DNA of 26,181 nucleotides from a virus: the IMG/VR virus record IMGVR_UViG_3300023184_000464, positions 1 through 26,181 of that record; one strand, given 5' to 3'. The position numbers were made by a program, and so were the translations under genes. Below are positions 7,994 to 21,575 of this stretch, in pieces. The notes below the pieces were generated by a model. The model saw only the letters and a list, made by a program, of their open reading frames with translations, searched no databases and had not been told where the DNA came from. Numbering within the stretch: the first letter of the stretch is position 1; every line of letters begins with the position of its first letter.

Positions 7994-10195
7994 ATGGAAG
8001 AAATCTACAATAATATACCAACTTGGGATAATGGTAAATGGACTATTACTGATTTTGAATCAAGAGAGTTATTTTCTAATTTTATTTTTGGTTTATTTAA
8101 AGAACCTGGTAAATATAAATTTGATGAAACAAGTTTTTTATTTAATCAACAAGGAGAATTATTTAGAGAAAATAAAGTTTATTGTACAGCACCATTTAAA
8201 TCTAAAGACTTTGTTAATTATTGGGATGATCAAAAACTAAAATGTAGAAAAGGTATAATATTTAAATCTAAAAATGATACCTGGTTTATTACAAGAGACT
8301 ACTATATGTGGTTAAACTTTTTACCAATCTTTGATAAAGAACAACAAAAGTTTGACTTTGCAAAAATTAGAGATGCTCAGTATCATATGGCATTATATGA
8401 ACTACTTGCAGAACTTAATTATAAACATGTTGCTATTTTAAAAAAACGTCAAATAGCATCTTCTTACTTTCATATATCAAAGTTACTTAATCAATTATGG
8501 TTTGAAGAAGGAGTTACCTTAAAAATGGGTGCTAGTCTTAAAGATTATATTAATGAAAAAGGATCTTGGAAATTTCTTGCAGAATATGCAGCATTTCTTA
8601 ATCAACATACTGCATGGTATAGACCTATGAATCCTGATAAAATTTTAATGTGGCAACAAAAAATAGAAATTAGAAAAGGAGATAGAAAAACTGAATCAGG
8701 TTTAAAAGGTACAATGCAAGGAATGTCTTTTGAAAAAGATCCTACAAATGGTGTTGGTGGGCCAGTAAAATATTTTTTTCATGAAGAGGCAGGTATTGCA
8801 CCAAAGATGGATCAGACATATGAATACATGAGACCTGCAATGAGATCAGGTTTAACAACTACAGGAATGTTTATTGCTGCAGGATCAGTAGGTGATTTAT
8901 CACAATGCAATCCTTTAAGAGATATGATATTAAATCCTAACTCAAAAGATGTATATGCTGTAGAAACAACTTTATTAGATAATAAAGGTACACCAGGTGT
9001 GTCAGGTTTATTTATTCCTGAACAATGGTCTATGCCTCCTCATATTGATTTATATGGTAACTCACTTGTTGAAGAATCTCTTATAGCATTAGATGCTCAA
9101 TTTGAAAAATGGAAAAAAGAATTAAATCCAGAAGATTACCAGTTAAGAATATCTCAACATCCAAGAAATATAAAAGAAGCATTTGATCACAGATCTGTAT
9201 CAGTTTTTCCTACACATTTAATTGCAGCACAAGCAAGAAGAATTGAGGAAAAAGAATATGCTTATGAATTTTTAGATATTAGTACAGATTCTGATGGAAA
9301 ACCTTTTGTTACAACAAGTAATAAAAGACCAATAATAGAATTTCCAATATCTAAAAAAACTGAAGATAAAACAGGAGTATTAGTAGTATGGGAAAGACCA
9401 ATTAAAGATCCAACTTTTGGACAATACTATGCTTCAATTGACCCTGTATCTGAAGGAAAAACAACAACATCAGAATCATTGTGTTCTATATATGTAATGA
9501 AAGCTCCAGTAGAAGTAACTAGAATAAGTGGAACTGAAACAGAAACATATGTTGAACAAGATAAAATAGTTGCTGCTTGGTGTGGAAGATTTGATGATAT
9601 TAATAAAACTCATCAAAGATTAGAACTTATAATAGAATGGTATAATGCATGGACAGTTATAGAAAATAATATTTCTTTGTTTATTCAATATATGATATCT
9701 AGAAAAAAACAAAGATATTTAGTACCTAAAGGACAGATTATGTTTTTAAAAGATATTGGTTCTAATGCTAACGTCTTCCAGGAGTATGGTTGGAAAAATA
9801 CTGGCACATTATTTAAAGCACATTTACTAAGTTATACTATAGAATATACTAAAGAAGAATTAGATGTAGAGACTAAAACAGATGGTACTATTGTAAGAAC
9901 TAAATATGGTATAGAAAGGATACCTGATCCCATGTTACTTAAAGAAATGCAAGAATATGCAGATGGTGTCAATGTGGATAGACTGGTTTCTTTTGCTGCA
10001 CTTGTTGCATTTATGAGAATACAACAATCTAATAGAGGATATTCTAAAAGAGTAGTTATGGATGATGCAGCAAAAAACTTGCAAAAGTCAGAAAATTTGT
10101 TTAAATTAAATAGAAGTCCTTTTCGTCATGTTGGAGGAAACAGGGTATCAAATAGGACAGACTCTAATAGATCTGCCTTTAAAAACTTAAAGTAA
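7994..10195 (+). CDS. terL: Terminase large subunit (DNA packaging ATPase-nuclease)
   Basis: This 733-residue protein has the order of TerL motifs. The ATPase has a deviant Walker A LKKRQIASS (149-157), Walker B VKYFFHEEAG (258-267, with E264 and E265) and coupling motif AAGS (295-298). The nuclease half has D483 in YASIDPVS, E557 in VIENN and D662 in VDRLVSFAAL, which fit the RNase H-like three acidic residues. It translocates DNA into proheads and cuts it. The N-terminal 110 residues and the basic/Arg-Asn tail (from about 680) are extensions. The length is larger than many TerL proteins but within the range of large Bacteroidota phages. The portal gene follows by 6 nt. Confidence 0.92.
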   Translation: MEEIYNNIPTWDNGKWTITDFESRELFSNFIFGLFKEPGKYKFDETSFLFNQQGELFRENKVYCTAPFKSKDFVNYWDDQKLKCRKGIIFKSKNDTWFITRDYYMWLNFLPIFDKEQQKFDFAKIRDAQYHMALYELLAELNYKHVAILKKRQIASSYFHISKLLNQLWFEEGVTLKMGASLKDYINEKGSWKFLAEYAAFLNQHTAWYRPMNPDKILMWQQKIEIRKGDRKTESGLKGTMQGMSFEKDPTNGVGGPVKYFFHEEAGIAPKMDQTYEYMRPAMRSGLTTTGMFIAAGSVGDLSQCNPLRDMILNPNSKDVYAVETTLLDNKGTPGVSGLFIPEQWSMPPHIDLYGNSLVEESLIALDAQFEKWKKELNPEDYQLRISQHPRNIKEAFDHRSVSVFPTHLIAAQARRIEEKEYAYEFLDISTDSDGKPFVTTSNKRPIIEFPISKKTEDKTGVLVVWERPIKDPTFGQYYASIDPVSEGKTTTSESLCSIYVMKAPVEVTRISGTETETYVEQDKIVAAWCGRFDDINKTHQRLELIIEWYNAWTVIENNISLFIQYMISRKKQRYLVPKGQIMFLKDIGSNANVFQEYGWKNTGTLFKAHLLSYTIEYTKEELDVETKTDGTIVRTKYGIERIPDPMLLKEMQEYADGVNVDRLVSFAALVAFMRIQQSNRGYSKRVVMDDAAKNLQKSENLFKLNRSPFRHVGGNRVSNRTDSNRSAFKNLK

Positions 10196-10201
10196 AATAC
10201 T

Positions 10202-12952
10202 ATGCAAATAATTAATGCTTTACAGGCCAAAGCAGGAGCTAAAACTGAAGTTAATAAAATGGGTACTTTAACCCAACCATTACAATTTTTATCTCATAAA
10301 GAAAAGAATGAAGAATGGGCTGCATGGAATCTTGACTGGATTGAATGGCAAGGACTAAGACAGATACGTCAAAATTCTAGAAGACTTATGAAAAATTATA
10401 AGTTAGCAAAAGGGACAATTGACAAATCAGATTATATAGTAGAAGAAAATAATGAAATGAGAGACATAGTAGATCTTCTAACTAAAGAAGATACATCTGC
10501 TTTAGAACTTAAATTTTATCCTATTATTCCAAATGTTATTAATGTTCTAGTAGCTGAGTTTGCAAAAAGAACAACTAAACTTACATACCGTGCAATAGAT
10601 GATACATCTTATAATGAGATGTTAGAACAAAAACGTAAGATGGTTGAAGAAACTTTATTGTCTGAAGCTGAAATAAAAATATCAGCAGCACTTCAAGAAC
10701 AAGGTTTAGATATTACATCAGAAGAAGGTAAAGAAGCATTAAATCCTGAAAAACTTAAATCATTACCAGAAATAGAACAATTCTTTAAAAAAGATTATAG
10801 ATCTATGGTAGAAGAATGGGCTACTCATCAACATAAAGTAGATGTTGAAAGATTTGGTATGAATGAATTAGAAGAAAGAGGATTTAGAGATATGCTAATT
10901 ACAGATAGAGAATTTTGGCATTTTAGAATGATGGAAGATGATTATGAAGTAGAACTATGGAATCCTGTTTTAACATTTTATCATAAATCTCCAGATGCTA
11001 GATATATTTCACAATCTAATTATGTTGGTAAAACAGAAATGTATACTATTGCTGATGTTATAGATAACTATGGATATTTAATGACTGAAGAACAATTAAA
11101 AAGTCTTGAACATATATATGCTATTACAGCTGCGGGTTATACAACAGGTGGTTATCAAAATGACGGTACATTTTATGATGGTACTAAATCACATGCATGG
11201 AATACTAACATGCCATCATTAGCAATGAGACAATATACTTCAGCAATGAATGGTAGTGTTATAAATAATGGAGATATAATAAATACAATTTTTGCAGAAA
11301 GTGGAGATGAATTTGTAAATTATAATTATGACTTACTTAGAGTTTCTACAATATATTGGAAATCACAAAGAAAAGTAGGACACCTTACAAAAATAACTGA
11401 AACTGGAGAAGTTATTAATGAAATTATTACAGGAGATTATAAAGTACTTGATAAACCAATTTATGATAATAGATTATTTACTAATAAATCTAAAGATAAT
11501 TTATTATTTGGAGATCATATAGATTGGATATGGATTAATGAAACTTGGGGTGGTGTTAAAATTGGTCCAAATATTAGTTCTTATTGGGGTATGTCTAATC
11601 CAGGTGGTTTTTCTCCAATGTATATTGGTATAGAAAAAAATAAAATTGGCCCTTTAAAATTTCAATTTAAAGGTGATTCAACATTATATGGATGTAAACT
11701 TCCTGTAGAAGGTTCTATTTTTTCTGATAGAAATACAAAGTCTACTGCATTAATTGATTTAATGAAACCATACCAGATTGGATATAACATAGTAAACAAC
11801 CAAATTGCTGACATATTAGTAGATGAGTTAGGAACTATTATTATGTTAGACCAAAACACTCTTCCTAGGCATTCTTTAGGAGAAGACTGGGGAAAAGGAA
11901 ATTTATCTAAAGCATATGTTGCTATGAAGAATTTTGGTATGCTTCCTTTAGATACATCTATAACAAATACAGAAAATGCATTAAACTTTAATCATTTTCA
12001 AAAACTTGACCTTTCACAAACTGAAAGACTTATGTCAAGAGTAAATTTAGCAAATCACTTTAAACAACAAGCTATGGAAGTAATTGGTGTTAACCCTCAA
12101 AGGATGGGACAACAGTTATCTCAGATTACAGCTACTGGAGTAGAACAAGCAACAGCTGCATCTTATGCTCAAACAGAAATTTATTTTATTCAACACTGTG
12201 ATTACTTAATGCCTAGAGTACATACAATGAGAACAGACTTAGCACAGTATTATCAATCTACAAAACCATCAACAAGATTAACATATTTAACTTCTGCTGA
12301 TGAAAAAGTAAATTTTAAAATTAATGGTACAGAATTATTATTAAGAGATTTAAATATATTTTGTAGTACTACTGCAAATCATAGAGCTATTTTAGAACAA
12401 CTTAAACAAATGGCTATACAAAATAATACTACTGGAGCATCAATATATGATCTTGGTAGAATTGTTCAATCAGATTCAATTGCAGAAGTTACTAAAGTTC
12501 TTAAAGATTCTGAATCTAAATTACAACAACAAAAACAACAAGAACAGCAATCACAACAAAAACTGCAACAAGAACAATTGGCATCTCAAGAAAAACAAAA
12601 ACAAATGGATATTCAAGCTGCAGCAGATAGAGATGATAAATTAATTAAAAAAGATATTACTGTTGCTGAAATTAGAGCAGCTGGTTATGGAGCATCGGCA
12701 GATGTAAATGAAAATAAACAATCTGACTATATAGATGCTATGGATCAAATTAGATCTACTGAACAATATCAAGAACAAACTGATTTACAAAGAGAAAAAG
12801 AAAATAATAGAATGACTATTGAAACTGATAAGTCTCAAATTGAAAGAGAAAAAATACAAGCTCAAAGAGAAATAGCAGATAAACAACTACAAATTGCTCA
12901 AGAAAATAAAAATAAGTTTGATTTGAAAACAAATAATAAAAATAATAAATAG
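10202..12952 (+). CDS. Portal protein with long Gln-rich coiled-coil tail
   Basis: This 916-residue protein follows TerL immediately, as portals do. The N-terminal 60-120 residues are helical (EWAAWNLDWIEWQGLRQIRQ), followed by mixed alpha/beta segments with ELEERGFRDMLITDREFW near 220-240. Then come the portal stem and wing regions and a helix at about 615-660 (LSQTERLMSRVNLANHFKQQ). I recall this pattern from portals of large Bacteroidota and crAss-like phages. From about residue 770 the chain becomes Gln/Lys/Glu-rich, a coiled coil coded by CAA/AAA runs, possibly the barrel or an internal tail. The portal is the dodecameric DNA gate at one capsid vertex. The gene ends with TAG. Assignment is by context and pattern rather than a single motif. 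Confidence 0.86.
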   Translation: MQIINALQAKAGAKTEVNKMGTLTQPLQFLSHKEKNEEWAAWNLDWIEWQGLRQIRQNSRRLMKNYKLAKGTIDKSDYIVEENNEMRDIVDLLTKEDTSALELKFYPIIPNVINVLVAEFAKRTTKLTYRAIDDTSYNEMLEQKRKMVEETLLSEAEIKISAALQEQGLDITSEEGKEALNPEKLKSLPEIEQFFKKDYRSMVEEWATHQHKVDVERFGMNELEERGFRDMLITDREFWHFRMMEDDYEVELWNPVLTFYHKSPDARYISQSNYVGKTEMYTIADVIDNYGYLMTEEQLKSLEHIYAITAAGYTTGGYQNDGTFYDGTKSHAWNTNMPSLAMRQYTSAMNGSVINNGDIINTIFAESGDEFVNYNYDLLRVSTIYWKSQRKVGHLTKITETGEVINEIITGDYKVLDKPIYDNRLFTNKSKDNLLFGDHIDWIWINETWGGVKIGPNISSYWGMSNPGGFSPMYIGIEKNKIGPLKFQFKGDSTLYGCKLPVEGSIFSDRNTKSTALIDLMKPYQIGYNIVNNQIADILVDELGTIIMLDQNTLPRHSLGEDWGKGNLSKAYVAMKNFGMLPLDTSITNTENALNFNHFQKLDLSQTERLMSRVNLANHFKQQAMEVIGVNPQRMGQQLSQITATGVEQATAASYAQTEIYFIQHCDYLMPRVHTMRTDLAQYYQSTKPSTRLTYLTSADEKVNFKINGTELLLRDLNIFCSTTANHRAILEQLKQMAIQNNTTGASIYDLGRIVQSDSIAEVTKVLKDSESKLQQQKQQEQQSQQKLQQEQLASQEKQKQMDIQAAADRDDKLIKKDITVAEIRAAGYGASADVNENKQSDYIDAMDQIRSTEQYQEQTDLQREKENNRMTIETDKSQIEREKIQAQREIADKQLQIAQENKNKFDLKTNNKNNK

Positions 12953-14318: not shown

Positions 14319-15935
14319 ATGGCAACTCCAGTAATGAACAACGGCATATTCCTACGGGATACAGCCTATGCAGCTAGTTCCCATGTGGATTCTTACCACT
14401 TGGTGAACATGCTAAAAGATGCAGAACCAATGGACTTAGGTCCAGTAGACCTTTGGGCAATGGCTCAAAGAGTTGAAATGCCTCTATACCAAATGTCAAG
14501 CTTTGGTGGTAAAAATGTAATCAATGTAGATAATGCTCGTGGAGAGTACAAATGGCAAACTCCGGTTTCTATTGACCTTCCATACATTATTGAAGACATT
14601 GAGAACACTAATTATTTTAAAGGTATTGATGGTACAACTTTCAAAATTAAAATTAACAAAAGAGAATTTGGACATGGTGATATCATCACATATGACAAAT
14701 ACAATGGTGTTGAGATGTACATTACAGCAGATGATATCCTTCCTTTAGGAGATGGATTTATCTATACTGTACAATTGGTAAACAATGATAACTATAAATA
14801 CTTAGATAATAAGTACTTAGCTAATGGTACAAAAGTATTCCGTAAGGGTTCTGCCCGTGGGGAATATGGAGAGAGATTTTCTGACATTACAACAAACACA
14901 GGATTCCGTGAATTCTACAACTATGTTGGTGGTGCAGAAGCTCACGTACATTATTCTATATCTTCTCGTGCAGACTTGATGATCAAAGGTGGAATGAATG
15001 CAGATGGTACAGTTCCTGTAACTGAAATCTGGAGAACATTTGACAAAAACATTGATCCATCTATTGCATCTTTAGATGACATGGTTAAAGTAATGGGTAA
15101 AGACAAAGTTAAAAAAGCTTTTGACAATGGTGATTTATCACGTACATTCTTAACTAATATGGAAGCTGCACATCTTTCTAAGATTGCAACAGACATAGAA
15201 ACTTACTTAATGTGGGGTCATGGTGGACGTGTACGTCAGGATGGACCAGATGATGTTAGATTGTCAGTAGGTCTTTGGAAGCAGTTGGATAACTCATTCA
15301 AAAGAGTATATAACAAGAATAACTTTACACTTGATTTGTTCCGTGGAGAAATTTATAATTTCTTTAATGGTAAAGTTGAGTTCCAAGGTCCAGATCCAAA
15401 AAGATCACTAGTTGTTCAAACTGGTATGGCAGGTATGAGAATGGTTAATGAGGCAATTAAAACTGAAGCAATTTCTTCAGGTCTTTTAATCCAAGCTGCA
15501 GACATAGGAGCTATCACAGGAAAAGGAATGGACTTAAACTTTGGATTTGCATATACTTCATATGTAATACCTTTCTTAGCAAATGTTAAGTTTGTACTTA
15601 ATCCAGCATTTGATAATGTTCATACTAATGATATTGAAAACCCAATCATTGATGGTTTCCCATTATCTTCTTATAGCTTCATTATCTTTGATATCACTGA
15701 TAATACTAATGACAATATCTTCTTATTGAAGTTGTCTTGGGATAATCAATTAAAGTGGTGGTACCAAAATGGTACTATGGATTACATGGGACGTTCACAA
15801 GGATTCCAGTCTTCTGGTCAATTCAATGGATACCGTGTAATGATGTCTCAAACAATGCCAGCTATTTGGGTAAAAGATCCAACTAAAGTTTTAAAAATTG
15901 TTATGAGAAACCCAATTACTGGTGGATCATTCTAA
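14319..15935 (+). CDS. Major capsid protein
   Basis: This 538-residue protein follows the scaffold-like gene and precedes a strong terminator. N-terminal residues 1-60 (with NNGIFLRDTAYAASSHVDSY and MAQRVEMPLYQMSS) are helical, then come beta-rich and alpha/beta segments compatible with an HK97-fold capsid protein, including YFKGIDGTTFKIKINKREFG near 105-125. Codon use differs from its neighbours: CGT supplies roughly half of the Arg codons, whereas TerL and portal use AGA almost exclusively, and C-ending codons (TTC, ATC) are frequent. This suits a very abundant protein. The start follows a 30-nt A-rich leader. The fold is inferred from context and composition. Confidence 0.85.
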   Translation: MATPVMNNGIFLRDTAYAASSHVDSYHLVNMLKDAEPMDLGPVDLWAMAQRVEMPLYQMSSFGGKNVINVDNARGEYKWQTPVSIDLPYIIEDIENTNYFKGIDGTTFKIKINKREFGHGDIITYDKYNGVEMYITADDILPLGDGFIYTVQLVNNDNYKYLDNKYLANGTKVFRKGSARGEYGERFSDITTNTGFREFYNYVGGAEAHVHYSISSRADLMIKGGMNADGTVPVTEIWRTFDKNIDPSIASLDDMVKVMGKDKVKKAFDNGDLSRTFLTNMEAAHLSKIATDIETYLMWGHGGRVRQDGPDDVRLSVGLWKQLDNSFKRVYNKNNFTLDLFRGEIYNFFNGKVEFQGPDPKRSLVVQTGMAGMRMVNEAIKTEAISSGLLIQAADIGAITGKGMDLNFGFAYTSYVIPFLANVKFVLNPAFDNVHTNDIENPIIDGFPLSSYSFIIFDITDNTNDNIFLLKLSWDNQLKWWYQNGTMDYMGRSQGFQSSGQFNGYRVMMSQTMPAIWVKDPTKVLKIVMRNPITGGSF

Positions 15936-15959
15936 TAAAAAATAAAATTAAACTAAAAG

Positions 15960-15986
15960 GGAGGAGGGAGCTCCTCCTTTTTTTTT
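15960..15986 (+). terminator. Strong rho-independent terminator after capsid gene
   Basis: GGAGGAG (15960-15966) pairs with CTCCTCC (15971-15977) around a GGAG loop, and nine T follow (15978-15986). It is the most GC-rich hairpin in the window and lies 25 nt after the capsid stop, so it limits read-through into downstream genes. Confidence 0.9.
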
Positions 15987-16027: not shown

Positions 16028-17044
16028 ATGGAAAATTTTACAATGGTAGAAACAACTACCAGCACAACAAAAAAAACAGCTATTGCTGTAAGACCTTTTT
16101 TTGATAGCTCTGCTTCAAATATGGGATTAGAAAATTATGGATTAGCATTATATGATGGTGTTAAACATCATGAACAACTAGCATGTCTAGAAAGTAATGG
16201 TGTAATGAGGTATGTAACAGGATTAAATGAGTTTGCTCCTGAAATTAAATTACTTCAAAAAGATGCTAGAGAAGCAAGAATAAGAGAAATAAGATCTGCT
16301 ATTATTGAACTTGAAAAAGATTTAGCAGCAAATGTAATTGATATTGATGATAAGGACTTTTGGAATAAAGTAACATTACTAAGACCTGACAATCAAAAAT
16401 TTTGGAATAAAATAAATATCTCTTGTGGAAATGAACCTATGTTCTTAGACCCAAAAGATCCTTATGATAGAATTAAACTTTATGCTATTGAAGCAGGAGG
16501 TTTTGCAATTGTAGCAAAAAGTTATGATGATGCAAGATCAAAAGCTGTAGCTCCTAAGTTTTACTTAGATAAAGAAGAAGAAACTGTAATGGCAAGAACA
16601 GAATACAAAAAAATGCGTAACAAAGCATTATCTGAACTTCAAAAATTATTTGACAAGAACAGTACTAAATTATTCTACATTGCAAAAGTTGTAGATTTAA
16701 ATAGTACACAGTATAGAAAATCAACACCTAATGATGTTATTTATGAAAACATGGACATTTATATAAATGGAGATGGTGCAGAAGGAAACAAGGAAAGAGC
16801 AGCTAAATCATTTATTGAAACTGCAGCAATGGATATGGAAACATTAAAAATCAAATCAATTGTAAGAGATTCCGTTTTTTTTAAGTATATTATAAATAAG
16901 GCAGATGGTTATATTTATCATGTTAAGTCAACAGCTTTACTTGGTAGAAATGTAGCAGATGTAGTTGAGTACTTAAAGAATCCTTTAAATGAAGATATTC
17001 TTAAAGATCTTAATGAAGCTTGTGAAAAGTATTGGAATGCGTAA
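16028..17044 (+). CDS. Conserved post-capsid structural protein, function unknown
   Basis: This is a 338-residue protein. Residues 1-30 are Thr/Ser-rich; FFDSSASNMGLENYGLALY at about 24-42 reads like a conserved motif. Residues 75-105 form a charged helix, followed by mixed alpha/beta segments and the C-terminal helix LNEACEKYWNA. I recall similar proteins following the capsid gene in Bacteroidota phages, where they are probably virion components. No enzyme motif is recognised. It follows the capsid terminator and precedes the lysine-rich cluster, so it may be an inner capsid or minor head protein, but this is inference from position only. Confidence 0.65.
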   Translation: MENFTMVETTTSTTKKTAIAVRPFFDSSASNMGLENYGLALYDGVKHHEQLACLESNGVMRYVTGLNEFAPEIKLLQKDAREARIREIRSAIIELEKDLAANVIDIDDKDFWNKVTLLRPDNQKFWNKINISCGNEPMFLDPKDPYDRIKLYAIEAGGFAIVAKSYDDARSKAVAPKFYLDKEEETVMARTEYKKMRNKALSELQKLFDKNSTKLFYIAKVVDLNSTQYRKSTPNDVIYENMDIYINGDGAEGNKERAAKSFIETAAMDMETLKIKSIVRDSVFFKYIINKADGYIYHVKSTALLGRNVADVVEYLKNPLNEDILKDLNEACEKYWNA

Positions 17045-17064: not shown

Positions 17065-17436
17065 ATGAAAACTACAAAAACAATGAAAACAGGTGGTGCA
17101 AAACCTAAAGCTATGTATGGCAAAGAAATTATGCAAAAAGGTGGTTCTACAGGTAAAACAAAAAAATACAAAACAAAAAATTCTTATTCTGAATTAACCG
17201 GAAGTAATAATAATCCTATACGTACTACAGTAGATTCTCCTGGTGGAAATTATAAAAAAAATATAGAATGGCAATCATATTTAAGTGATACTAAAAAACC
17301 TTATATGATGTCTGTAACAAAAGGAGGAAAAACTAATGACTTTCAATTATCAGAAAAACAAGCACTTAGTCAAAGAAAAAAAGTTAAAAAAACAATGGGT
17401 TTTCAAAAAGGTGGAATGACTAAAAAGAAAAAATAA
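17065..17436 (+). CDS. Lysine-rich GG-motif protein
   Basis: This 123-residue, strongly basic protein of low complexity carries Gly-Gly motifs preceded by a hydrophobic residue: MKTGG (7-11), MQKGG (about 23-27), VTKGG and FQKGG near the C-terminus, plus SPGG. KGGSTGK recurs as KGGSTGT in the protein at 19049 and KGGSTKS in that at 19678. It has no signal peptide or membrane segment. It is likely a virion-internal DNA-binding or packing protein, or a substrate for proteolysis at GG; neither is proven. The gap to the previous gene is 20 nt, A-rich. Confidence 0.62.
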   Translation: MKTTKTMKTGGAKPKAMYGKEIMQKGGSTGKTKKYKTKNSYSELTGSNNNPIRTTVDSPGGNYKKNIEWQSYLSDTKKPYMMSVTKGGKTNDFQLSEKQALSQRKKVKKTMGFQKGGMTKKKK

Positions 17437-17442
17437 TTAATA

Positions 17443-17781
17443 ATGCCAAAAGATGCCTGTTATTCTAAAGTAAAAGCACAGTATGCTGTGTTTCCTTCAG
17501 CAAGGGCTTCTCAAGCAATTGCTAAATGTAGGAAAGGTTCTGGTACAGTTAGAAAAACTAAAGCAGGTACAAACCTTAAAAGATGGCAAGCAGAAAAATG
17601 GCAAGATACAAAATCAGGTAAAGCTTGTGGTGCCGGTGGTTCTAATGAATACTGCCGGCCTACAAAAAGAGTATCAAAGGATACTCCTAAAACAAAGTAT
17701 GAATTAACCCCTTCTAAACTAGCTGTTAAGAAAGCTGAAAAGTCTAAAGTAGGTATGGGAAGAAGAGTTAAAAATGTATAA
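17443..17781 (+). CDS. Small basic Cys-containing protein, resembles DUF5872 proteins
   Basis: This is a 112-residue basic protein. The N-terminus (ACYSKVKAQYAVFPSARASQ, then AIAKCRK) matches a short helix-Cys motif that I recall from phage and large-virus proteins with VKxxYxVxPSAxAS. Residues 45-85 contain KWQAEKWQDTKSGKACG, YCRPTKRVSKDTPKT, a pattern I associate with DUF5872 (CRPTKRVSxxTPKT). C6, C28, C62 and C71 may bind metal or form disulfides. The function is unknown. It begins 6 nt after the previous gene, within the basic cluster between capsid and neck genes. Confidence 0.72.
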   Translation: MPKDACYSKVKAQYAVFPSARASQAIAKCRKGSGTVRKTKAGTNLKRWQAEKWQDTKSGKACGAGGSNEYCRPTKRVSKDTPKTKYELTPSKLAVKKAEKSKVGMGRRVKNV

Positions 17782-17799
17782 CTATTAAAAAATAATACT

Positions 17800-18747
17800 G
17801 TGGCTACTTTAAGACCTTATGCTTTAAAAAATCCAAAAACAGATACTGTTGTACCTGGTGCTTTAATTCTTTCTAGTATTAAACCTGTATCAGGAGATTG
17901 GTTTCCTGTTGTTGAAGGTATAGAAAGAAATTTTGTTAATCCAGTAAGTTATGATACTACTGTTAAAATAACATATCCTTCTTCTGTAAACTCACAAAGG
18001 TTTGGAGACTATGCAAAAACTTTTATACAAACTAAAGGTTATACTCCTAATAATGTAGTATTATCTGAATCAGTTTGTTCAGATGATATTGATGGTCCTA
18101 TTTATTCTGATATACAAAATATTGGTCAAACTCCACCATCACAAAATGATTTTTTAGGTCCTTTTATGTCAGGAGGTTTAGCAGGATATGCTCACACAGG
18201 AATATTAGGTATTCAAGCTTGGGGATCTCATATTACAAATACAACAAATGGTGCATTATTTTTTATTAATATGCCACACATTGGAATTTCTCAAGCAGGT
18301 AATGTAGGTAGAATTTGGAGAAGAGGTAAAACTCAAGCTCAATCTTTAACAGATAATACTTGTGGTGCAGTTGCTACAGCAATTGGATGGGTAGCAGCAA
18401 ATGCTGTAGCTCCAATTGTAGCAAACTTTCCAAATGATTATCAAAATTATACTTTATGTGCTATACTATTTCCATTTAAAGCAGCTCTTGCAGCTATAAC
18501 AACTTATGGAGCTCAAATGGTTTATGCTACTGAAAAAATAAGATTAGCTTCAGATGCTTTTTTAACAGGTGCATCAGGAATAATTGGTGCTAATGTTGGA
18601 ACAGGAATTGATGTATTTTATTGTTCAGGAACATTTATTAATACAGATGATGGATACAATGCTTACATTAATGTTACATCATTTAAAAAATATAATAGTG
18701 TTGGTGGATGGGTAGATTTAACTACATCATTTTTAGCAGGTTTATAA
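17800..18747 (+). CDS. LCIB/LCIC-type beta-carbonic anhydrase-like protein
   Basis: This 315-residue protein contains VLSESVCSDDIDGP (87-100) with C93 and D95, FMSGGLAGYAHTGILGIQAW (122-141), INMPHIGIS with H160 (156-164), GNVGRIWRRGK (167-177) and NTCGA with C188. The order Cys-x-Asp, GGLxGxxxTGxxG, PHxGIS, GxVGxxxRxG, CGA is that of the LCIB family, whose Zn ligands are two Cys and one His. The 67-residue and 28-residue spacings are near the 62 and 24 I recall for the diatom PtLCIB4. It would interconvert CO2 and bicarbonate if active. Arg of the dyad is not identified. The start is GTG at 17800; no ATG is available before residue 123. It sits among virion genes, so a structural role with a repurposed fold is also possible. 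The match is from memory. Confidence 0.72.
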   Translation: MATLRPYALKNPKTDTVVPGALILSSIKPVSGDWFPVVEGIERNFVNPVSYDTTVKITYPSSVNSQRFGDYAKTFIQTKGYTPNNVVLSESVCSDDIDGPIYSDIQNIGQTPPSQNDFLGPFMSGGLAGYAHTGILGIQAWGSHITNTTNGALFFINMPHIGISQAGNVGRIWRRGKTQAQSLTDNTCGAVATAIGWVAANAVAPIVANFPNDYQNYTLCAILFPFKAALAAITTYGAQMVYATEKIRLASDAFLTGASGIIGANVGTGIDVFYCSGTFINTDDGYNAYINVTSFKKYNSVGGWVDLTTSFLAGL

Positions 18748-18758
18748 AATAAAAAATT

Positions 18759-19031
18759 ATGGCAAAGACAGCAGCTTGGACAAGAAAAGAAGGTAAAAAT
18801 AAAACAGGTGGTTTAAATGCAAAGGGAGTAGCCAGTTATAGAGCAGCTAATCCGGGATCTAAACTTAAGATGGCAGTCACTACTAAGCCATCTAAGTTAG
18901 ATCCAAATGGTAAAGCAGCAAAGAGAAGAAAGAGTTTTTGTGCTAGAATGTCAGGAATGCCTGGACCTGCAAAAAAACCAAATGGAGAACCATCAAGAAA
19001 AACTCTTGCTTTAAGAAAATGGAATTGTTAA
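18759..19031 (+). CDS. Small basic protein, DUF6321-like
   Basis: This 90-residue protein has AAWTRKEGKNKTGGLNAKG (5-23), SYRAANPGSKLKMAVTT (26-42), then KAAKRRKSFCARMSGMPG and a C-terminal ALRKWNC. I recall this run (AWxRKEGKNxxGGLNxKG, NPGSxLK, AAKRRKSFCARM, LRKWxC) as the DUF6321 family, found widely in aquatic phages; its function is unknown. The basic nature suggests nucleic-acid contact. It lies 11 nt after the carbonic-anhydrase-like gene. C76 and C90 are probably conserved, and the terminal Cys is notable. Confidence 0.78.
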   Translation: MAKTAAWTRKEGKNKTGGLNAKGVASYRAANPGSKLKMAVTTKPSKLDPNGKAAKRRKSFCARMSGMPGPAKKPNGEPSRKTLALRKWNC

Positions 19032-19048
19032 TTTAAAAACTATATATT

Positions 19049-19516
19049 ATGAAAACAAAATGTATGAGCTGTGGAGGTTCTATGAAAAAAATGAAAACTG
19101 GTGGTGTTAATAAAAAATTATTTAAAGGTAAAGAAACTTATAAAGAAGAACTTGCTGAAGGTAAAGCAATTAAATCTGGTAAAATATCTCCTAAACAATA
19201 TGCAAGTGGTGAAGCATCTGAAAAAAAAATAAAAAAAATGGCATTAGGAGGAACTACTACTAAAAGAATAATTAAAAAAAGTACTGGTGGTATGTATGGC
19301 ATACCTCAAGAAAATCTTGGTACTTCTGGTCAATATGGTTTTGCAAAAAAAGGTGGTTCTACAGGAACACATAAAATGCCTAATGGTAAAGTAATGCTTA
19401 ATTCTAAAATGAAAAAAGGTGGAGCAACTAAAGCAACTAAGTTTGCAGCATTAGCTCCTCCATATAACAAAGCAACTTTTGCTGATAAAATTGTTGGTGC
19501 TAAAAAGAAAAAATAA
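19049..19516 (+). CDS. Lysine-rich GG-motif protein with N-terminal CxxC
   Basis: This is a 155-residue basic, low-complexity protein. The N-terminus is MKTKCMSCGGSMKKMKTGG, with CxxC at 5-8 and GG at 9-10 and 18-19. Further motifs are MALGG (about 67-71), KSTGG, KKGGSTG (from about 101) and MKKGG (about 121-125), and the chain ends AKKKK. The short stretch LFKGKETYKEEL with KSGKISPKQYASGE recalls small phage proteins with a helical body, GKETYxEELxEAKAxKSGKISPxxYxxGE. It is likely related to the proteins at 17065 and 19678. The function is unknown. The stop overlaps the next start by one base. Confidence 0.65.
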   Translation: MKTKCMSCGGSMKKMKTGGVNKKLFKGKETYKEELAEGKAIKSGKISPKQYASGEASEKKIKKMALGGTTTKRIIKKSTGGMYGIPQENLGTSGQYGFAKKGGSTGTHKMPNGKVMLNSKMKKGGATKATKFAALAPPYNKATFADKIVGAKKKK

Positions 19517-19662
19517 TGGCTGAGAAGAAGGATAAGAAATGGATACAAAAAGCAGTTAACCCTAAACATAAAGGTTACTGTACTCCTCTTACCAAAAAAA
19601 CTTGTACACCTAAGAGAAAAGCTCTTGCAATGACTTTTAAAAAAATGGCTAAAAATAAATAA
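19516..19662 (+). CDS. Very small basic protein (48 residues), conserved phage type
   Basis: An ATG at 19516-19518 shares one base with the previous stop and opens 48 codons ending TAA at 19660-19662. The product begins MAEKKDKKWIQKAVNPKHKG and continues YCTPLTKKTCTPKRKALAMT then FKKMAK. I recall the pattern GxCTPxTKxTCTPxRKALAxTFKK from many aquatic phages as a short orphan protein of unknown function. C22 and C30 may form a pair. Its translational coupling and the recognisable pattern make a real gene likely despite its length. Confidence 0.72.
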   Translation: MAEKKDKKWIQKAVNPKHKGYCTPLTKKTCTPKRKALAMTFKKMAKNK

Positions 19663-19677
19663 CTAAAAATAAATAAA

Positions 19678-20418
19678 ATGAAAAAAACAAATAAAGTTAA
19701 GATGGGTCCTTTAGGAACTCCACTTGGAAATGCATTAGGATATTTTAACTCATTAAAAGCAAAAACTAAAGTTGAACCTAAACAAACTTTAAGAAAAGCT
19801 CAAGATGGACAATCTGTTTATAGCGGACCCTTTTCTGAAAAACGAACTAAAAGTTTAGATACAAAGTTTCCTAGTACAGTGACTCCTATAGGTATGAATC
19901 CTTGGTATAATACCAAATCTTATATTAATACAGGAGGAAATGTTGGAGATGATCCAGTAGGAGATGAAAAAAAAGAAAGAGCTAACTATGAAAATTTTTT
20001 AAGACAAGATTCAAAATTAAAAAAAGGTGGTTCTACAAAGTCTAAAATGAAAACAAGTGTTTCAGTTAAAAAAATGCAGGATGGTGGTATGTTTACACCT
20101 AATGGTAGACTTAAATCTAAAAAAACTAGAGATATTTCTTTATCATCTTATGGAAATTCAACTAATGTTTCAAGGACAAAAAGAAATGGTGACATAGTAA
20201 CTAAAAGTATAAATACTAGTAATGGTTATGGCGGAACTACTGCTGATAAAACTAAAACCATTACTAATAAAGTTGGAGAAACTGTATCTAAAAAAACAAA
20301 AAATATTTCTGCAAAATCTGCTGATAGAAAAATTAATAGAGTAAGTAATAATGTAGGTAGAAATGCTAATGATACTTGGGCATATAAAAAAGGTGGTCTT
20401 GTAAAAAAAAATAAATAA
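19678..20418 (+). CDS. Large lysine-rich GG-motif protein
   Basis: This 246-residue basic protein is rich in Lys, Ser, Thr and Asn and probably disordered. It contains INTGG (about 83-87), LKKGG (about 114-118) followed by STKSKMK, MQDGG (about 134-138), GYGG and a C-terminal YKKGG. The N-terminus (VKMGPLGTPLGNALGYFNSL) may form a short helix. It ends the basic cluster that starts at 17065. It has no signal peptide, membrane segment or enzyme motif. An inner virion protein, perhaps processed at the GG sites, is a reasonable guess. The next gene starts 3 nt later. Confidence 0.62.
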   Translation: MKKTNKVKMGPLGTPLGNALGYFNSLKAKTKVEPKQTLRKAQDGQSVYSGPFSEKRTKSLDTKFPSTVTPIGMNPWYNTKSYINTGGNVGDDPVGDEKKERANYENFLRQDSKLKKGGSTKSKMKTSVSVKKMQDGGMFTPNGRLKSKKTRDISLSSYGNSTNVSRTKRNGDIVTKSINTSNGYGGTTADKTKTITNKVGETVSKKTKNISAKSADRKINRVSNNVGRNANDTWAYKKGGLVKKNK

Positions 20419-20421
20419 AAA

Positions 20422-21120
20422 ATGTTAAATAGTACTATTACTATAAAGATAAAACAAAGAATCAATAAACTTGATAGCAATGACTATGATAATATAGAAT
20501 GCTGGCAAATTGTTGAGTCTTTTAATAAAGCACAAGTAGAGTGGACTAGAAGACAATTACATGGAGGTAATCAGTATAAAGAAGGAGATGAACAATCTAC
20601 TAGAAGAAAAGATGACCTACAAGTATTAATGAAAAAATATGATTTATCATTATATCCAAAAGACTATTATTATTTTGCAGCATTACCGGAAGATTATTTA
20701 CAATGGAAAAGAACAGATGTATTTGCAAATCAAGATTGTTGTGAAAAAAGAAGAATGACAGTTTATTTTGCTGAAGAAGCAAATCTACAACAATTATTAA
20801 ATGATAAACTAAAACAACCTAGTTTTGAATGGGCAGAAACATTTGCTACTTTAATAGGTAATGATGTACATATATATACTAACAATCAATTTAATATAGA
20901 AAGTGCAGATTTAATATATTATAGACAACCTATTAAAATTCAAATACAAGATTGTATTGATCCTTACACAGGTGTAGTATCTTTAACAAATGTACAATGT
21001 GAATTTAAAGATGATATAATAGAATTACTCATTGATGAAGCAGTAAGTATATTAGCAGGAGATATTGAGTCAAACAATCAGTTTGCTAGAGGAAGTGCAA
21101 ATGCTGAAAAAAATAATTAA
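20422..21120 (+). CDS. Probable neck/head-tail connector (ring or adaptor) protein
   Basis: This is a 232-residue, mixed alpha/beta protein. Residues 1-75 are helical with IECWQIVESFNKAQVEWTRR, and the middle has YPKDYYYFAALPEDYLQWKR. The C-terminus is the helix IIELLIDEAVSILAGDIESN followed by Q, AR and AEKNN. I recall the C-terminal pattern (DEAxxILAGDIExxNQ) and the N-terminal LPEDYL region from ring or head-completion proteins of crAss-like and related Bacteroidota phages, which join the portal to the tail. Its place after capsid-associated genes and before the tail genes fits. The assignment remains tentative, and a tail-completion protein is the alternative. Confidence 0.6.
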   Translation: MLNSTITIKIKQRINKLDSNDYDNIECWQIVESFNKAQVEWTRRQLHGGNQYKEGDEQSTRRKDDLQVLMKKYDLSLYPKDYYYFAALPEDYLQWKRTDVFANQDCCEKRRMTVYFAEEANLQQLLNDKLKQPSFEWAETFATLIGNDVHIYTNNQFNIESADLIYYRQPIKIQIQDCIDPYTGVVSLTNVQCEFKDDIIELLIDEAVSILAGDIESNNQFARGSANAEKNN

Positions 21121-21122
21121 AA

Positions 21123-21575
21123 ATGGAAAAACCTAGACTATTAAAAAGAAATACTGAATCAACTGTATCATATTCAAGTGCACCCGCAGGAGGATCTATA
21201 GATACAATGACAGCAGCATGTGTATCAGAATTAATGAATGCTTCTACAAGTTTTCATAAGTTACATCTTAAAGTAACTGGTGTAGGATCATTTGCTGCTC
21301 ATAAAGCTCTTAATGATTTATATGATGCTTTAGTTGATCATGCTGATGCTTTAGCTGAAGGATACCAAGGAGCAGCAGAAAAATTACTTACTTACTCTGA
21401 GTCATCTCCTAAAACTTTAAATAGTGTAGATGAAGGATTAAATTATATTCGTGAAATGGTAAATATGGTAACTGGATTACAATCTAAAATGCCATATTCA
21501 GAAATAGTAAATGAACTTGACACAGTTAAATCAAGTTTAAATTCTGCAAAATATAAATTAAAATTCTTAAAATAG
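21123..21575 (+). CDS. Dps-like ferritin-fold protein (DUF5856-like) with conserved ferroxidase residues
   Basis: This is a 150-residue helical protein. FHKLHLKVTGVGSFAAHKAL contains H48 and H60, and DALAEGYQG contains D75 and E79. The spacings H48-H60 (12), H60-D75 (15) and D75-E79 (4) equal those of E. coli Dps H51, H63, D78 and E82. The usual D67 equivalent is N64, with D65 beside it. Dps shells oxidise Fe(II) at such sites and store iron while protecting DNA. I associate this protein with DUF5856, a phage relative of the ferritin superfamily. Residues 97-150 form the other helices. A lysine-rich Dps-like N-tail is only partly present. Coupled to the neck gene (2-nt gap), it ends at a terminator. 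Confidence 0.78.
   Translation: MEKPRLLKRNTESTVSYSSAPAGGSIDTMTAACVSELMNASTSFHKLHLKVTGVGSFAAHKALNDLYDALVDHADALAEGYQGAAEKLLTYSESSPKTLNSVDEGLNYIREMVNMVTGLQSKMPYSEIVNELDTVKSSLNSAKYKLKFLK

Follow-up and report, generated by a model that had tools for sequence, protein, structure and literature searches.

LCIB-type proteins, which have a beta-carbonic-anhydrase fold and are known from algal CO2 concentration, are the closest described relatives of the protein studied here. Two of them, PtLCIB3 and PtLCIB4, have been reported to be active (PMC9614477). PtLCIB4 (5b5y) and 6kfs, both of the LCIB/theta-CA family, carry a C-H-C metal site, an Asp, a His (H88 in PtLCIB4) and an RRG motif in the same order as the phage protein, and in the classical beta-carbonic anhydrases of E. 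coli (Can2) and H. influenzae the metal site likewise starts with CxD. For gene layout, the nearest described proteins are the head fibers gp21 (PF11133) and gp29 (PF25641) of crAss001, which are encoded in the virion cluster, bind the capsid through residues 1–38 and 1–58, respectively, and display their distal parts (PMC10172136). In this study, we analyzed a window of 26,181 nucleotides of viral DNA, the whole stretch examined, in which a 315-residue protein (17800..18747, plus strand, as are all features below whose ends are joined by two dots) has a similar layout, with a short N-terminal module followed by an LCIB domain. However, its distal domain is unrelated to those of gp21 and gp29, no sequence similarity to either was found, and its reading frame matches PF18599 only, not PF11133 or PF25641.

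Judged from its genes, the window is a virion cluster of the crass-like type. It encodes a terminase large subunit (7994..10195; phrog_6681, E 2e-58), a crass-type portal protein (10202..12952; phrog_6547, E 1e-91), a major capsid protein of the Crass_capsid type (14319..15935; PF23898, E 1.5e-31, and phrog_11589) and a tail ring protein (20422..21120; phrog_29507, E 1e-10, with PF25710 below threshold). Going solely by its position and length, the 338-residue protein adjoining the capsid gene (16028..17044) may be an auxiliary capsid protein; its synteny is conserved, and no sequence match to crAss001 gp36 was obtained. In the window, as in its clade, the gene order is portal, a 415-residue protein, major capsid protein, the 338-residue protein, the Lys-rich and LCIB genes, ring, a Dps-like protein, and proteins of 569 and 180 residues. 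The block between the 338-residue gene and the ring gene (17065..20418) holds the LCIB gene and the Lys-rich reading frames 17065–17436, 17443–17781 (DUF5872), 18759–19031 (DUF6321), 19049–19516 and 19678–20418. Leptolyngbya phage Lbo-JY46 (PP438436), which is a cultured relative, carries homologues of the terminase, portal, capsid, 338-residue and ring genes in the order of the window. In contrast to the window, it has neither the LCIB gene nor the Lys-rich cassette; its capsid, 338-residue and ring homologues are directly consecutive, the ring gene starting at the base where the 338-residue homologue ends, and the whole 3.4-kb cassette is missing. Because the flanking homologues abut, 17065–20418 is accessory within a virion cluster that is conserved apart from it, a presence and absence read from two records that gives no direction of ancestry. 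The original prediction had set the gene inside a virion gene cluster between small Lys-rich proteins, and both points hold, with the capsid, portal, terminase and ring genes around it in conserved synteny, the DUF5872 protein upstream and the DUF6321 protein downstream.

The LCIB gene was predicted to be a full-length gene with a GTG start, and it is: the frame has zero internal stops across 315 residues, and its GTG aligns with ATG in close relatives. The opposite strand contains many stops in the frame read. The only Pfam match of the protein is LCIB_C_CA (PF18599; residues 70–296, E 6e-26), at 91.5 bits (cut-off 25). In phmmer searches of the PDB, the protein matched 6kfs (E 2e-13) and PtLCIB4 5b5y (E 3e-9), and a profile built from 17 phage relatives matched 6kfs at 4e-24. 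The sequence matches in the PDB were 6kfs, 9vzj/9w05, PtLCIB4, CrLCIB and CrLCIC, with no convincing match beyond LCIB-family entries. An AlphaFold2 model computed from 55 phage sequences reached a mean pLDDT of 85 and a pTM of 0.79. Superposition of its residues 48–312 gave Z 26.2 with 6kfs (2.3 Å, 240 residues) and Z 26.1 with PtLCIB4 (2.4 Å, 237 residues), whereas LCIB/LCIC (Z about 20) and, below them, the classical beta-carbonic anhydrases (Z about 11) ranked lower. Accordingly, the fold is shared with PtLCIB4 and 6kfs over about 240 residues at 22–25% identity, and with the classical enzymes in its core at 9–15%. We delimit the domain to residues 49–313 (17944..18738), compared with 70–296 in Pfam and 48–312 in the structural alignment. 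Two stretches of the model are of low confidence, residues 39–44, where the N-terminal module joins the LCIB domain, and residues 98–108, the loop right behind the metal-site motif. A chance motif match is ruled out by the LCIB_C_CA E value of 6e-26 together with the structural Z of 26. Collectively, these results indicate that the window protein is a genuine member of the LCIB domain family in a new context.

The metal site is preserved in the alignments. C93-S94-D95 (18076..18084) aligns with C46-S47-D48 of PtLCIB4, as numbered by reference to the PtLCIB4 mutants S47R and H88A; C93 is a putative Zn ligand, and D95 corresponds to the Asp of beta-carbonic anhydrases. H144 (18229..18231) aligns with H88 of PtLCIB4, H160 (18277..18279) and C188 (18361..18363) are the remaining putative Zn ligands, and R174 (18319..18321) belongs to the RRG motif and is invariant in the phage and cellular LCIBs aligned. 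C93, D95, H160 and C188 all fall on the cellular Cys-His-Cys and Asp residues. Moreover, C93, D95, D96, N107, H144, H160, R174 and C188 show no variation among 55 aligned phage sequences with 32–89% identity to the window protein. The invariance of C93, D95, H144, H160, R174 and C188 indicates that the metal pocket itself matters, and the phage domain likely binds Zn. The sequence blocks from which the family had been recognized (C93, D95, GGLAGYAHTG, PHIGIS with H160, GNVGRIWRRG and C188-GA) are all in place, and the assignment to the LCIB family and fold is borne out by the profile match, the model and these invariant residues.

In contrast, the catalytic Arg that the original prediction proposed to look for did not turn up after the CxD motif. 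The cellular LCIBs aligned read CSDEVTR (PtLCIB4), CSDEVNR (6kfs) and CCDEVNR (9vzj), whereas the phage consensus is C[SA]DD[VIAL][DNC][GA]. In all phage rows read, the Arg after CxD (R52 of PtLCIB4) is replaced by Gly or Ala, and the window has G99 (18094..18096); the phage protein has no CxDxR, unlike classical beta-carbonic anhydrases. In addition, the loop after the CxD motif is about 9 residues longer than in PtLCIB4 and 6kfs. By its position, the Arg of cellular LCIBs probably corresponds to the one that pairs with Asp in the dyad of beta-carbonic anhydrases, and R174 or another Arg could replace it. Since the ligands and the Asp are kept and the Arg is lost, we class the protein as an LCIB family member only, not as a carbonic anhydrase.

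Unlike PtLCIB4, 6kfs and the classical beta-carbonic anhydrases, the phage-encoded protein carries an additional N-terminal mounting module. This module A (residues 1–45, 17800..17934; xPYxLK..xxVPGxLxLxxxxPxxGxWxxV) also occurs on proteins of related phages without an LCIB domain. In HMM searches with a profile built without L067, it was detected on 83 of 166 LCIB reading frames (duplicate fetches included) and, in the same contigs, on 15 different proteins that lack the LCIB domain (E 1.5e-24 to 1e-9). The latter include an LRR_5 protein (L050:4864–6063), a Fib_succ_major protein (L019:9002–10042) and Thr-rich proteins; in L019:9002–10042, a tandem pair of module A precedes the Fib_succ_major domain. 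The LCIB proteins of the T4-like contigs L033 and L034 bear a module B, which is also present on a 776-residue YadA-head-like fiber in L031 that has no LCIB domain; the L031, L033 and L034 loci all have a gp23-type capsid gene on one side and a neck gene on the other. A module C on further T4-like LCIB proteins is common to neighboring proteins of 127–132 residues that have no LCIB domain. The LCIB domain is therefore carried by three or more N-terminal modules that are unrelated to one another, A in crass-like and B and C in T4-like phages, and in L053:7635–9962 and L054:7656–9983 it lies within a 776-residue protein with unrelated sequence on either side. A 516-residue gene with no Pfam or PHROG match precedes this protein in both contigs.

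Mixing of modules is usual for fiber and appendage proteins. Together with the N-terminal attachment of the crAss001 fibers, it suggests that the LCIB domain is displayed on the particle surface, and gene order and the shared N-terminal modules make a virion-surface location probable. Module A shows no detectable similarity to residues 1–41 of crAss001 gp21 (hhalign 0.8%), so it is its modular use that points to a role as an anchor. We consider it reasonably probable, with a good measure of reserve, that the window protein is an accessory virion protein, in which the N-terminal module mounts the protein and the LCIB domain, metal site included, is turned to the outside. In such a particle, the module of about 45 residues would attach the protein at a capsid-fiber or tail-appendage position, and the C-terminal domain of about 265 residues, with its conserved Cys-His-Cys site, would face outward. 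During attachment, this domain would most likely act on or close to the host surface, because related phages fill its slot with adhesin-type domains; there, the pocket might serve a small-molecule reaction, on CO2/bicarbonate or another compound, or ligand binding. The first interpretation as a repurposed shell or cargo protein came close, but display on the surface by way of an N-terminal module agrees better with the data than internal cargo. The enzyme acting on host inorganic carbon or pH that it offered besides remains a conjecture, as the Arg conserved in cellular LCIBs is lost. Overall, the first interpretation is partly supported, and the observation behind it is confirmed.

What the LCIB domain does can be read in more than one way. 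A purely structural or ligand-binding domain, used for decoration or receptor binding with a metal site that merely holds the fold, is a tentative possibility that we take seriously. The slot is common to LRR, Fib_succ_major, collagen-like and YadA-like proteins, and the cellular Arg has been lost, as would suit such a domain; however, D95, H144 and R174 are invariant besides the ligands, which goes beyond the needs of a structural metal. These same residues and the invariant putative ligands C93, H160 and C188, as well as the reported activity of PtLCIB3/4, speak for a particle-borne active carbonic anhydrase, which would hydrate CO2 or dehydrate bicarbonate at the cell surface and, as the phage enters, shift the pH or inorganic carbon there. 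We regard this as somewhat unlikely, given the Gly or Ala in place of the Arg of PtLCIB4, 6kfs and 9vzj, and the longer, poorly predicted loop past that position. Furthermore, the beta-carbonic-anhydrase-like DabA2 was functionally impaired when its Zn ligands and the residues of its Asp-Arg dyad were replaced by Ala (PMC13144422), and CrLCIB itself is without quantified in vitro activity. An extended form, in which an active, metal-dependent LCIB-class carbonic anhydrase with a site rewired to work without the usual Arg sits outside the particle as a plug-in on different fiber bases and is exchanged between lineages, seems unlikely. Finally, an unpackaged auxiliary metabolic enzyme, which would supply bicarbonate or buffer pH for host metabolism in the infected cell, draws on the enzyme-type fold and on relatives distant from capsid genes, but is quite improbable, as the gene of the window and its clade is flanked by capsid and tail-ring genes, the protein has N-terminal modules in common with fiber- and adhesin-like proteins, and no carbon-metabolism neighbors were seen. 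The relatives distant from capsid genes are those of the crass-like group L068–L079 and of several T4-like contigs, whose LCIB genes neighbor other kinds of genes, such as DNA polymerase, a setting that would be fitting for an intracellularly made enzyme as well.

The display reading places a beta-carbonic-anhydrase-fold domain in an apparent display slot of tailed phages in two very different lineages. With an active pocket, CO2/bicarbonate chemistry would be carried by phages to the surface of their hosts; with an inactive one, an enzyme fold would have been taken over for display on the virion, its metal site being kept under strong selection. Whichever holds, there is now a testable protein in about 100 phage contigs without annotation, and searches with modules A, B and C could uncover further displayed domains.

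Against six relatives, the LCIB core has dN/dS of 0.22–0.31, and it is under purifying selection among close relatives. The phage LCIBs form one group apart from three cellular sequences, on a long branch with 100% SH-aLRT support. Within it, the T4-like L032–L034 are placed among crass-like rows, with the clade of the window (support 99/98). A transfer of the domain between T4-like and crass-like lineages is likely and not proven, since the AU test leaves the alternative placement standing (p 0.05–0.07).

The original prediction knew of no phage virion protein with this fold, and our database searches agree. INPHARED phages gave no match to four LCIB family members or to the 776-residue carrier, PHROGs gave no LCIB match for the window protein at the sensitivity used, and the BFVD structure library gave none at E <= 0.001, a weak negative. 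No report of LCIB in phages was found in the open-access literature searched. Viral contigs searched with a 6kfs fragment contained no cellular-type LCIB. A host-derived or plasmid gene was rejected as an explanation, with no relative found on plasmids or in GTDB contigs, the latter search covering only sequences with chosen short peptides; a Bacteroidota-type promoter, sought as a host hint, showed no enrichment. Two profile scans of IMG/VR, in turn, returned 162 and 139 stretches encoding relatives, and about 100 distinct contigs with the domain, from uncultured crass-like and T4-like phages, were fetched. The domain was present in 30 of 30 records searched; a crass-type capsid gene was found in 10 of these, and a T4-like gp23-type one in 11. 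Collectively, these results point to a real branch of the LCIB domain family in phages that is apparently undescribed. Two adjacent LCIB copies occur in L037, L060, L085, L089, L090 and L092; these contigs reach 217 kb, and the metal-site residues are kept in both copies.

Several further features of the window were observed. A strong terminator-like hairpin with 12 pairs and a T tail (15955–15982) lies directly 3' of the major capsid gene. The Lys-rich protein immediately upstream of the LCIB gene (17443–17781) matches DUF5872 at E 1e-12. The one at 18759–19031 matches DUF6321 at E 4e-21, and relatives of it, from more than one phage group, are found no further than 1.5 kb from the LCIB gene at 44 of 155 loci (a count that includes duplicates). 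The virion cluster also contains a Dps/ferritin-like gene (21123–21572; phrog_858, E 4e-20; DUF5856), whose synteny is kept in about 20 relatives. Finally, the 741-residue reading frame at 48–2273 is weakly TPR-like in Pfam, and its C-terminal part seems by eye to resemble FkbM-type methyltransferases.
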